A program made the translations under genes and the position numbers. A stretch of 64,000 nucleotides of DNA from assembly GCF_003991905.1 (NCBI RefSeq), contig NZ_RSCL01000001.1, positions 620,654 through 684,653 of the forward strand, in the 5' to 3' direction. The DNA comes from Dulcicalothrix desertica PCC 7102. GTDB taxonomy: Bacteria; Cyanobacteriota; Cyanobacteriia; Cyanobacteriales; Nostocaceae. Shown here piece by piece: positions 1 to 64,000 of this stretch. Within the stretch, counting starts at the first letter, position 1. Each line of letters starts with the position of its first letter. The notes under the pieces are model-generated. The model saw only the letters and a list, made by a program, of their open reading frames with translations, had not been told where the DNA came from and searched no databases.

Positions 1-2
1 GT

Positions 3-233
3 ATAAAAAGCTTCAATACTAATGATAGTACAGTATGGTCACTAGCCTTTAGTTCAAATGGATTAATACTTGCTTGTGGCGCCGATACTAAAATCCAACT
101 TTGGAATACTTCTTATTTCTCGTATATTACACTTCAGGCGCCTAAACTTTATGAAGAAATTAAGATAAAAAGTGTTACTGGTTTAAGTGGAACAAGTATA
201 GCGAATCTTATATTACTTGGCGCCATCGAGTAA
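3..233 (+). CDS. WD40-repeat protein, C-terminal part only
   Basis: An open frame enters from the left edge and stops at TAA 231-233. It reads as the last WD40 blade: DSTVWSLAFSSNG, then KIQLWNT, where the Trp-x-x-x-Phe and closing Leu-Trp spacing is typical. The final 30 residues (LYEEIKIKSVTGLSG to LLGAIE) resemble the tail of many cyanobacterial NACHT or NB-ARC plus WD40 proteins, which end in a similar LYEGMNITGVTGL motif. The enzymatic or NTPase part lies outside the window, so the full domain architecture is inference. GGCGCC occurs three times in these 231 bases. Confidence 0.75.
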   Translation: MKSFNTNDSTVWSLAFSSNGLILACGADTKIQLWNTSYFSYITLQAPKLYEEIKIKSVTGLSGTSIANLILLGAIE

Positions 234-240
234 AAAATGA

Positions 241-286
241 TAGGTTGCTTGCAACGGATGCAACGGATGTAACGGATAGTTGATTA
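241..286. repeat. AACGGATGT-type short tandem repeat
   Basis: The stretch contains CAACGGATG, CAACGGATG and TAACGGATAG back to back, a nine-base unit with small changes. The same unit occurs in inverted arrangement at 35755-35880. It lies between the WD40 tail and the permease gene. No coding capacity is seen. Confidence 0.6.
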
Positions 287-375
287 CCTGAATTTAACCA
301 AAATCTAAAATAATAGAAATATTAAGTTATTGAGAATATTTAGCCAAATGGTTTTAGCTTACCAGGGGGTAAAAT

Positions 376-1662
376 ATGGCTGTTACTAACCCACAGCCTC
401 AATTGAAACGTGAGTTAGGAGTATTCGGCGCCACCTTTATGGGTTTGGGGTCAATAGTTGGTACTGGGGTATTTGTTAGTATAGGTATTGCAGCAGGAAT
501 TGCTGGGCCAATGGTAATAATAGCAATCTTCATAGGCGCCTTAGTAGCAACTTTTAACGGACTCAACAGCGCACAGCTAGCAGCAAGTCATCCGGTAAGT
601 GGTGGTAGTTATGAATATGGATACAGATATTTAACTCCAGCGTTTGGGTTTACAGCTGGTTGGATGTTTTTGGTAGCAAAGACAGCTTCAGCAGCTACAG
701 CAGCTTTAGGTTTCGCTGGATATTTAGTTAATATTCTAAGTTTAAGTTCAACCTTGATTGTTCCAATTGCTTTTATTACTGTAGCAATTATGACCGTAAT
801 TGTTCTCAGTGGAGTAAAGCGCTCGAATTTTGCTAACACTGTAATAGTATCTGTAACGTTATTATCTTTAGTGTTTTTTATTCTGGTGTGCTTACCGCGT
901 GCAATTACTGAAGGTGCAAGTAATTTATCACCAACATTAAGCGAAGTTTCTTTAGCTAACATACTTCAAGCTAGCGCGCTGATGTTTGTAGCTTATACAG
1001 GTTATGGACGTATAGCGACAATGGGGGAAGAAGCCAAAAACCCACGGGTAACTATTCCCAGAGCAATGATTGTTTGTTTGTTACTAACAATGGTGCTTTA
1101 TATAACAGTAGCAGTTGTTGGTATTGGTGCAGTTGGAGTAGATGTATTAGCTAATCAAAATAAAACGGCGCCATTAGAAGCAGCAGTTCGTAGTGTAGCA
1201 GGTAGTGGCGCCAGTGTAGTTTTAGCAATAGGCGCCATGACAGCAATGTTAGGTGTACTATTAAACTTAATACTAGGATTATCGCGCGTATGGTTAGCAA
1301 TGGGGAGACGCTTTGACGCACCCAGATTTTTAGCACGTTTAAACCAACAGCAAACAACACCACACTATGCAGTAATATTAGTAGGCGCCACAATAGCCCT
1401 ATTAGTATTATTAGGCAACGTAAAAACAACCTGGTCATTTAGTGCATTTAGCGTATTGATATACTACGCAATCACCAACTTTGCAGCATTAAAACTCTCA
1501 CCCCAAGAACGACTTTACCCCAAATGGATAGCCATCCTAGGAATATTATCCTGCTTATTTTTAGCATTCTGGGTAGAATCATCAATTTGGCAAATTGGCA
1601 TCGGATTAATAATCGCTGGTCTAATTTGGCACAAAGTTAGACGTGCCGTAGCAACAAGTTAA
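376..1662 (+). CDS. APC-family amino acid permease
   Basis: This 428-residue protein is almost wholly hydrophobic with about twelve predicted membrane spans, as in the amino acid-polyamine-organocation family. The first span carries the glycine-rich substrate-binding motif GLGSIVGTGVFVS at residues 23-35, and a conserved GEEAKNP loop follows at about 217-223. It would import amino acids across the cytoplasmic membrane by proton or sodium coupling. The start ATG at 376 is preceded by AGGGGG. No partner transporter gene is adjacent. The substrate cannot be told from sequence alone. The gene contains seven GGCGCC palindromes. Confidence 0.9.
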   Translation: MAVTNPQPQLKRELGVFGATFMGLGSIVGTGVFVSIGIAAGIAGPMVIIAIFIGALVATFNGLNSAQLAASHPVSGGSYEYGYRYLTPAFGFTAGWMFLVAKTASAATAALGFAGYLVNILSLSSTLIVPIAFITVAIMTVIVLSGVKRSNFANTVIVSVTLLSLVFFILVCLPRAITEGASNLSPTLSEVSLANILQASALMFVAYTGYGRIATMGEEAKNPRVTIPRAMIVCLLLTMVLYITVAVVGIGAVGVDVLANQNKTAPLEAAVRSVAGSGASVVLAIGAMTAMLGVLLNLILGLSRVWLAMGRRFDAPRFLARLNQQQTTPHYAVILVGATIALLVLLGNVKTTWSFSAFSVLIYYAITNFAALKLSPQERLYPKWIAILGILSCLFLAFWVESSIWQIGIGLIIAGLIWHKVRRAVATS

Positions 1663-1663
1663 C

Positions 1664-61404: not shown

Positions 61405-61422
61405 GAATACTCGTTTCCTTTT

Positions 61423-63504
61423 CTAGTTATGCGTTCCCTTTGCTTTTGCGATAATTGCCTCAGCAACGTTGCGAGGCACTTCTTCGTAATGGCTAAATTC
61501 CATCGAGAAGATACCACGTCCTTGGGTCTTCGAGCGAATGTCAGTAGCATAGCCAAACATTTCTGCCAAGGGAACCTTAGCAGTTACTTTCGCAAGACCA
61601 GCTTCTGACCCCATACCTTCGATTTGCCCGCGACGAGAGTTTAGGTCTCCCATTACATCACCAAGGAAGTTTTCGGGAACTTCGACTTCAACTTTCATCA
61701 ACGGTTCTAACAGTACAGGCGAAGCTTTCATTACAGCTTCCTTCATCGCCATACTTCCGGCGATTTTGAAAGCCATTTCTGAAGAGTCTACATCATGGTA
61801 CGACCCATCAATCAATGTTGCTTTAACATCAATTAGCGGGTACCCAGCTAATATACCAGACTCAGTACTTTCCTTCATTCCAGCTTCAGCAGGGCCTATG
61901 TACTCTTTCGGTACAGTACCACCGACTATTTTAGAGACAAATTCAAATCCACTTCCAGGCTCACCTGGTTCAAGGTTAATAACTACGTGACCGTACTGAC
62001 CTTTACCACCGCTCTGACGAATAAATTTTCCTTCGACTCTATTTACAGGCTTACGAATTGTTTCGCGATAAGCTACTTGCGGCGCCCCGACGTTTGCTTC
62101 CACTTTAAATTCGCGTAGCATCCGGTCAACCAGAATTTCTAGGTGTAATTCACCCATCCCAGCAATTACGGTTTGGTTGGTTTCTTGGTCAACACTAACC
62201 CTAAAAGTTGGGTCTTCTTCTGATAGCGACTGCAAAGCTTTTGATAGCTTATCCATATCGTTCTTGGTCTTGGGTTCTACCGCAACCGAGATCACAGGCT
62301 CTGGAATATATAAAGATTCTAATATTACTGGTGAATTCTCATCCGTTATTGTATCGCCAGTTAATGTATCTTTTAATCCTAAAGCTGCTCCTAAATCGCC
62401 CGCCCGCAATTCGTCTACGTCTTGCCGCTCGTCTGCCTTTAATATCACTAATCGCGATATTCTTTCTTTCTTGTTTTTAGTAGCATTTAATACATAACTA
62501 CCTTTTTTCAAGATTCCTGAATAAACACGCACAAAGGTTAGGCGCCCATATGGGTCAGCCATAATTTTAAACGCAAGAGCTGACAACGGCTCTGAGTCAT
62601 CCGCATGCCGTTCAACGGCTTCACCTGAAGGAAGTGTTCCTTGAATAGCTGGAACTTCTTCCGGTGATGGCAAATAATCTACAACTGCATCAAGCAGTAA
62701 CTGTACACCTTTGTTTTTGAAAGCAGAACCACATAACATCGGTATTATCGTACCAGCCACAGTGCCTTTTCGCAAAGCTGTAGTAATTTCTTCTTCGGTT
62801 AGTTCTTCACCATCGAAGTACTTCGCCATTAATTGGTCGCTGGTCTCAGAAACTGCTTCAATCAATTTTGTTCGATATTCAGCAGCTAATTCCTCCATCT
62901 CTGCGGGAATATCTTCTTCTTTAATATCAGTACCTTTATCGTTGGTATAGATGTAAGAACGCATCTTAACCAAATCGACTATGCCCAAAAATTCGCTTTC
63001 AGCTCCTATTGGTAACTGAATGGGAACAGCATTCGCACGTAAACGGTCGCGCACTTGCTCGTAAACACGATAAAAATTGGCGCCTGTGCGATCCATTTTA
63101 TTGATAAATACAATCCGAGGTACTTTGTAGCGGTCAGCTTGGCGCCATACGGTTTCCGTTTGTGGTTGAACACCACCAACTGAACACAAAACCGTAATTA
63201 CACCATCAAGTACCCGCATCGAACGCTCAACTTCAATAGTAAAGTCTACGTGACCCGGAGTGTCAATAATATTAATTTGATGATCTTTCCAACTTGTACT
63301 AATTGCTGCGGCTGTAATCGTAATACCGCGTTCCCGTTCCTGTTCCATCCAGTCGGTGACGGCAGTACCTTCGTGAACCTCACCAATTTTATGAATAATC
63401 CCAGAGTAAAATAATATTCTCTCTGTTGTTGTTGTTTTGCCCGCGTCTATATGCGCCGCAATCCCTATATTGCGTACCTTTTCTAGCGGGATAGTACGTG
63501 CCAC
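61423..63504 (-). CDS. fusA: Translation elongation factor G
   Basis: EF-G drives translocation. The 693-residue protein has [35 protein letters not shown] and [10 protein letters not shown] in the G domain. The C-terminal domains contain [14 protein letters not shown] and the [18 protein letters not shown] segment. The start is GTG at 63502-63504 ([14 protein letters not shown]), preceded by GGAGG. It lies between rpsG and tuf in the usual str operon order. Confidence 0.98.
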
Positions 63505-63600
63505 AGGAGCCTCCTAGAGTTTTCGCCTCATATATCTTGTATATTACACTTTGTTAAGTTTATATACCTTACGGAAAACCGCCACTTTTGAAGTATTTTA

Positions 63601-63662
63601 GATTCTGGATTTTGGATTAAATCATTAGATTACAATCTAAAATCCCAAATCTAAAATCCAAA
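63601..63662. repeat. Heptamer repeat in the fusA-rpsG gap
   Basis: GATTCTGGATTTTGGATTAA and AATCTAAAATCCCAAATCTA with AAATCCAAAATC form an inverted heptamer repeat. The same words occur at 60043 and 29281. It can fold as a hairpin between rpsG and fusA. Confidence 0.6.
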
Positions 63663-63686
63663 ATCATTAAGGATTTAAACGTCTAA

Positions 63687-64000
63687 TTAATAACGATAGT
63701 GCGCGAAAGCTTTGTTAGCGTCTGCCATACGATGAGTTTCTTCACGCTTTTTGATTGCGCTTCCTGTTTCGTTTGCAGCATCCATTAATTCGTTAGCCAA
63801 TCTAGCAGCCATTGTTCGACCGGGACGCGCTCTAGAATATTGTACTAACCAGCGTAATGCTAGGGTTGTACCGCGTTCATTACGAACTTCCATTGGTACT
63901 TGATAAGTTGCACCACCGACACGACGCGCTTTTACTTCAACAAGTGGTGTTGCGTTGCGTACTGCTTTCTCAAATACTTCAAGAGGGTCGGCGCCTGTGC
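63687..64000 (-). CDS. rpsG: 30S ribosomal protein S7, C-terminal part
   Basis: S7 initiates assembly of the 30S head. The visible C-terminal part reads [37 protein letters not shown] and [25 protein letters not shown] in order, all typical. The 5' end, and presumably rpsL, lie beyond the right edge. It is the first visible gene of the str operon. Confidence 0.97.

Follow-up and report, generated by a model that had tools for sequence, protein, structure and literature searches.

HIP1 (GCGATCGC) is a GC-rich highly iterated palindrome (HIP) of cyanobacteria that occurs about once per kb and is tied to methyltransferases (Elhai 2015, PMC4390886). In that paper, GGCGCC is reported as an alternate HIP of Calothrix PCC 7103, which has lost HIP1 and to which GRCGYC methyltransferases are assigned; a second copy of the methyltransferase is considered potentially critical, and alternate HIPs are argued to be sporadic and non-persistent, with GGCGCC found in one strain and in 19 kb of another. 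We analyzed GGCGCC in a 64,000-nt stretch of Dulcicalothrix desertica PCC 7102 (the window), in its genome as a whole and in related genomes. An alternate HIP with this word has thus been described before, and the window genome, a sister species of PCC 7103 in our set, is a further case with the same word and the same loss of HIP1. The wider question is what purpose HIP1 serves and whether mutation bias or selection gives rise to iterated palindromes, and a genus with a switched word and several sequenced species lets mutation bias and selection be separated. Selection on HIP1 and its periodicity were reportedly described by Xu, Lawrence and Durand in 2018.

The window holds 124 GGCGCC sites, about one per 516 bp and spread over its length, compared to a mean of 6.3 and a maximum of 12 in 100 dinucleotide shuffles and to Markov expectations of 6.4 (first-order) and 5.6 (second-order). 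A first-pass annotation had put the numbers at about 115 sites and about four expected; the strong excess it described stands, with a somewhat higher exact count and an expectation a little above its figure. It was right to place the G+C content near 40% (39.8% measured) and to find no HIP1 in the window, although, with just 0.39 copies expected there, that absence alone says little; the whole genome holds 58 copies in 11.4 Mb. Open reading frames (ORFs) of at least 100 amino acids (aa) contain 110 of the 124 sites, 14 lying wholly outside ORFs, and all frames are used (71 sites encoding Gly-Ala, 13 and 26), as the annotation had said. Its statement that almost every gene carries the word was a little strong, since 41 of the 55 such ORFs do.

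Across the whole genome (11,419,637 bases, 109 contigs) we counted 19,393 GGCGCC and a single CCGCGG, the reversed-string control. A 600-kb sample (C1:500001-900000 and C20:20001-220000) yielded 1,039 sites where Markov models predict 45-53, with a density of 1.94 per kb in coding and 1.01 per kb in non-coding DNA. If codon or amino-acid usage made the excess, one might point to Gly-Ala, which is mildly over-represented in the sampled ORFs (928 seen vs. 800 expected), and to GGC GCC, which accounts for 506 of the 902 in-ORF sites. However, the other two frames hold 162 and 234 sites, the word also occurs outside genes, and 20 codon-usage-preserving synonymous shuffles of the 417 ORFs of at least 120 aa gave a mean of 53.5 (standard deviation 5.6, maximum 65) against the 902 observed. 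The shuffle refutes usage as the cause, and we give that explanation virtually no credence. The genome-wide pressure for GGCGCC in place of HIP1 that the first pass had proposed is therefore supported, by a whole-genome count far above the reversed-string control and by an excess that does not come from codon use, and it extends to the whole genus.

The genus set comprises seven genomes, namely the window genome (G000), Calothrix PCC 7103 (G060), PCC 7716 (G065), NIES-4105 (G062), HK-06 (G061) and two metagenome-assembled genomes (G063 and G064), which we compared with 210 other genomes of the family (217 in total). All seven carry GGCGCC at 7,475-20,380 copies per genome, or 1.15-1.71 per kb with genome lengths rounded; densities are similar in six (1.51-1.71) and lower in G063 (1.15). 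None of the other 210 exceeds 0.11 per kb, the highest count being 1,053 in ~9.5 Mb. HIP1 numbers 31-163 per genome in the seven (3.6-22.6 per Mb), compared to hundreds per Mb in most other family genomes, and the low-HIP1 exceptions elsewhere in the family (G182 with 30 copies, G194 with 535, G191 with 574 and G184 with 990) have no genus-like GGCGCC excess. An alternate HIP as described by Elhai (2015) is a GC-rich palindrome with about 1000-2000 copies per Mb in a genome where HIP1 is scarce or almost missing; GGCGCC stands at 1150-1711 per Mb in all seven genomes, with HIP1 low. We conclude that GGCGCC is the alternate HIP of this genus and has replaced HIP1 in 7/7 genomes. The swap is clade-wide, found in all of the genus and in 0/210 other family genomes, and not sporadic, which bears against alternate HIPs being sporadic and non-persistent (Elhai 2015). 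Neither this spread nor the tip-versus-fixed result given below was met in the literature searched, where PMC4390886 was the sole paper on GGCGCC as an iterated palindrome and the sole one combining GGCGCC with Calothrix.

In a class-level sample of 388 genomes, the table of which was read by eye, several genomes exceed one GGCGCC per kb (e.g., G435 and some f16 genomes), yet their reversed-string control is also high (9,489 vs. 2,450 in G435; 4,676 vs. 2,035 in G331). Milder excesses with a low control (1,169 vs. 25 in G448; 3,074 vs. 165 in G561) are possible independent cases. Within the family, G194 (10.7 Mb), with 535 HIP1 and 326 GGCGCC, may use a different alternate word or lack one altogether.

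GGCGCC is maintained at the DNA level. Aligned stretches are 93-95% identical to close relatives and ~87% to NIES-4105; in comparisons with three close relatives, 74-78% of GGCGCC pairs show no change, compared to 52-57% for GC-rich words, and with NIES-4105 the figures are 62% and 25-27%. When the same codon for the same amino acid was compared inside the site and elsewhere, again relative to NIES-4105, the synonymous base was kept in 130/145 vs. 188/340 cases for GCC, 122/149 vs. 175/306 for GGC, 43/46 vs. 300/440 for CGC and 44/53 vs. 261/458 for GCG. Maintenance is thus seen in all three frames and goes beyond protein constraint.

A synonymous tip-versus-fixed test used third bases flanked in every aligned genome by the rest of GGCGCC (279 sites, with 2,312 control sites); with one genome per species, its tips mix polymorphism with fixed change. 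At GGCGCC sites, single tips showed 42 losses and 2 gains (outgroup-supported: 35 and 1), and we observed 12 fixed clade-outgroup differences and 5 complex cases, compared to 315 losses, 319 gains (162 and 243 with outgroup support), 700 fixed differences and 323 complex cases at control sites (Fisher tests, p=1.8e-10 for direction and p=4.0e-6 for fixed vs. tip). Without the synonymous limit there were 114 tip losses and 10 gains. New changes away from GGCGCC are common and seldom fixed. Since a steady mutational ratchet predicts equal tip losses and gains, the 42:2 pattern, which is the one expected from weak selection or from conversion in populations, favors selection-like maintenance over the ratchet proposed by Elhai. 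The test replaced an earlier version (51 tip and 16 fixed changes at GGCGCC, 98 and 313 at controls) because the control in that version was biased to constrained sites, tip changes requiring an outgroup match. That inner C/T differences saturate with distance was not retained as a sign of upkeep because the control saturates too.

The 902 in-ORF sites fill 54% of the 1,667 protein-compatible ORF positions; at 10 loci outside the genus, 0/247 such positions are filled. Both members of a pair of positions 6-20 bp apart were filled in 2/104 cases, where 30.3 were expected, and of pairs 21-41 bp apart in 21/133, where 39.2 were expected. Positions with another site within 6-40 bp were filled in 43 of 172 cases, compared to 859 of 1,495 for those without. 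The 6-20 bp deficit is present in all six genomes tested, which share ancestry. We conclude that a second copy is avoided within ~20 bp and, less strongly, to ~80 bp; a second nearby mark may add nothing. The pair correlation gave no clear pattern beyond ~60 bp that would indicate regular spacing or periodicity, and a comparison with 13 control words (GGCGCC itself included) was a poor null with too few words, which the protein-compatible-position test replaced.

Differences at the inner C/T accounted for 45/75, 60/91, 33/48, 21/30 and 25/40 of one-off differences in five comparisons and for 34 of 50 polarized losses, compared to 22.3 expected from the same alignments, sites included. The decay words GGTGCC and GGCACC are the sole one-off class that is not depleted (121, observed/expected (O/E) about 1). 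This dominance of inner C->T fits a putative 5-methylcytosine (m5C) within GG-m5C-GCC. Since CG sites throughout these genomes change most often by C->T, the inner-C bias is support and not proof.

Methyltransferases were sought in the genus by PF00145 (C5) and PF01555 only, and three groups (A, N and D) were present in all seven genomes. Groups A (370 aa) and N (PF01555 type) were rejected as genus-specific writers, being family-wide (170 and 193 of 217 genomes). Protein D, an orphan cytosine-5 methyltransferase, occurs in 63 of the 217 family genomes (E<=1e-40), including all seven of the genus. Its identity to the window genome's copy is 81-99% inside the genus and at most 72% over its length outside (73% for one fragment). 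Of the HK-06 orthologue just the two ends are seen, each at a contig edge (94-95% identity), and that genome has a second copy at 83%. The genus D proteins form one clade (support 100/99, with HK-06 represented by its 83% copy), while second copies from three genomes branch apart. D is under constraint in the genus, with ratios of nonsynonymous to synonymous change (dN/dS) of 0.05-0.15 among the six intact copies compared. Elhai (2015) regards a second methyltransferase copy as possibly critical, but the window genome and G063 each have a single D match, so a second copy is not needed.

D is akin to methyltransferases that adjoin the nuclease RE_HindVP (PF09519), with 53-72% identity across the loci compared outside the genus. 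RE_HindVP adjoins D in six of ten family loci inspected (among them a remnant and a gene split in two) and in nine of 13 further loci of named genomes (one a remnant), four other outside loci being left out. It is present in 43 of the 217 family genomes (42 above the Pfam cut-off), including 39 of the 56 non-genus genomes with D, and was found in none of the seven genus genomes, where D lies beside a RuBisCO-like gene at six of seven loci, with a GHL10-SLH gene also at five of these; the remaining locus is that of the 83% copy in HK-06. The neighbors were named from Pfam matches of the proteins of the window genome and assigned in the other genomes by clustering. We take the HindVP recognition word to be GRCGYC. 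Outside the genus, the median GGCGCC content is 0.71 per Mb in genomes with D and the nuclease (n=39), 1.2 in those with the nuclease without D (n=4) and 5.1 in those with neither (n=150; p=1.2e-6 for D plus nuclease vs. neither, uncorrected for kinship), and this avoidance ties the pair to words including GGCGCC. D is the best candidate writer, an orphan inherited in the genus whose putative GRCGYC/GGCGCC specificity is suggested by its relatives' partners. D is thus related to HindVP-type restriction-modification systems but differs from them in that RE_HindVP was not found in the genus, D has another neighborhood, and GGCGCC is iterated, not avoided.

Vsr-type T:G repair coupled to the methyltransferase was rejected, as the Vsr endonuclease (PF03852) had no match above cut-off in the seven genomes, the two weak hits (E 0.36 and 0.85) falling far short of it. 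One viral-contig scan with a few exact peptide patterns, which reach close relatives only, found no phage-borne D relatives. NCBIfam matched broad methyltransferase families only, and PADLOC mostly general type II models. Near D in the window genome (L081, G000:C4:436000-452000) and in PCC 7103 (L082) lies a second C5 methyltransferase of 658 aa.

These observations would be united if D derived from a HindVP/GRCGYC-type restriction-modification system that lost its nuclease and now methylated the inner cytosine of GGCGCC, giving GG-m5C-GCC. Selection, or selection-like conversion in populations, would then keep the methylated or palindromic word every 0.5-0.6 kb because something would read it. 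The most plausible setting for such reading is DNA repair or the upkeep of the chromosome, with GGCGCC in the role that HIP1 would have elsewhere among cyanobacteria. Taken whole, this explanation, an alternate HIP kept by selection-like upkeep as a putative methylation mark written by D, seems to us about evenly poised between right and wrong. More tentative, and on balance doubtful, is the fuller proposal that a leftover restriction methyltransferase now writes a new mark across the genome, one that took over the role of HIP1, and that a reader protein keeps GGCGCC selected across the genus at one site per local neighborhood.

Several points weigh against the upkeep and writer parts of this explanation. 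Polarized losses with outgroup support, at all codon positions, number 50 against a context expectation of 50.4 (614 opportunities), so there is little overall constraint in these tips, and upkeep may have weakened recently. The 21-41 bp deficit is less marked than that at 6-20 bp and is missing from HK-06 (5 vs. 5.6; O/E 0.9), and the exclusion may reflect avoidance of harmful mRNA hairpins formed by paired palindromes. Methyltransferase group B, counted within the genus only, is present in six of the seven genomes, and the grouping covered 50 PF00145 and 30 PF01555 loci, not every match. In the enzyme comparison outside the genus, where p-values are uncorrected for kinship and fragments count as present, genomes with D and without the nuclease have a median of 6.1 GGCGCC per Mb (n=17), against 5.1 with neither (p=0.57). 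D without the nuclease is therefore unsupported as a sufficient cause of the excess, and the solitary methyltransferase suggested by the first-pass annotation is borne out in part: a candidate is present in all seven genomes, without RE_HindVP, but elsewhere such a gene does not raise GGCGCC. The other GRCGYC words, which an enzyme of that specificity would methylate as well, are rare in the 600 kb (GACGTC 3, GACGCC 14 and GGCGTC 11, against ~53 each expected), so D on its own does not account for the choice of GGCGCC among them.

In a mutational ratchet (Elhai 2015), G-m5C-directed mismatch repair would favor mutations that create GGCGCC, and the word would accumulate without use. The ratchet as modeled in that paper (PMC4390886) would become fixed at the palindrome GGCGCC, with the inner C methylated; the inner C/T bias and the depletion of the other three GRCGYC words fit, as do polarized gains from GGTGCC/GGCACC (2/36 vs. 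0.32 expected, few events). However, its steady state implies the balance of tip losses and gains that is seen at control sites and not at GGCGCC, with or without the synonymous limit. Among 202 opportunities, all one-off words together gave just 2 gains (0.73 expected), GGTGCC and GGCACC are not depleted, and short-range exclusion is not predicted. We consider the ratchet unlikely.

Biased recombination, with GGCGCC as a DNA uptake or conversion signal spreading without advantage to the cell, would mimic selection in the tip-versus-fixed test and suits a word that occurs in all frames and outside genes. Uptake sequences have a density of the same order as GGCGCC's ~1.6 per kb, but they are longer than a six-letter palindrome; the higher density in coding than in non-coding DNA also speaks against this account, which requires neither the replacement of HIP1 nor an orphan methyltransferase, and we regard it as quite improbable. 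A relic, built up in the genus ancestor and now decaying neutrally, would account for tip losses that far outnumber gains and for outgroup-supported losses at the context expectation, and GGC codons changed alike in site and control among outgroup-supported tips (18/97 vs. 27/140). Such tips changed less often in the site for GCC (6/83 vs. 19/141), CGC (4/34 vs. 59/264) and GCG (7/38 vs. 57/218), however, and neither the strong conservation against NIES-4105 nor the similar densities of six of the seven genomes suits decay, which makes the relic very improbable in our estimate.

If a leftover methyltransferase did become the writer and a reader protein exists, a HIP could change its word while its function stays. 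Loss of D, now named as an orphan methyltransferase, would probe the writer link. Like HIP1, GGCGCC is a GC-rich iterated palindrome; unlike HIP1, it is another word with another enzyme family, in genomes where GATC and CGATCG are depleted. In the 600 kb of the window genome, GATC occurs 211 times vs. 1,384 expected and CGATCG 6 times vs. 50 expected; GGCC is likewise strongly depleted (120 vs. 1,093 expected).

Table 1. Coordinates of the features discussed
Feature	Location	Strand	Basis or remark
GGCGCC sites, 124	window 1..64000	no strand	count and shuffles
Uninterrupted alignment to Calothrix PCC 7103 (G060), 96% identity	window 23383..35758	no strand	alignment; inside alignments for site gain/loss
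ORF with pentapeptide-like repeats	window 45895..46527	+	8 clustered GGCGCC sites (46000-46482), spacings mostly multiples of 15 bp
Protein D, orphan cytosine-5 methyltransferase	G000:C4:441733-442671, outside window		

The cluster in the pentapeptide-like ORF (Table 1) is a local exception to the even spread of GGCGCC. At window positions 35755-35883 lies a ~110-bp element with many dispersed copies (~73-84% identity), resembling a miniature inverted-repeat transposable element (MITE) or a repetitive extragenic palindrome (REP); among the matches listed, all seven genus genomes are represented.

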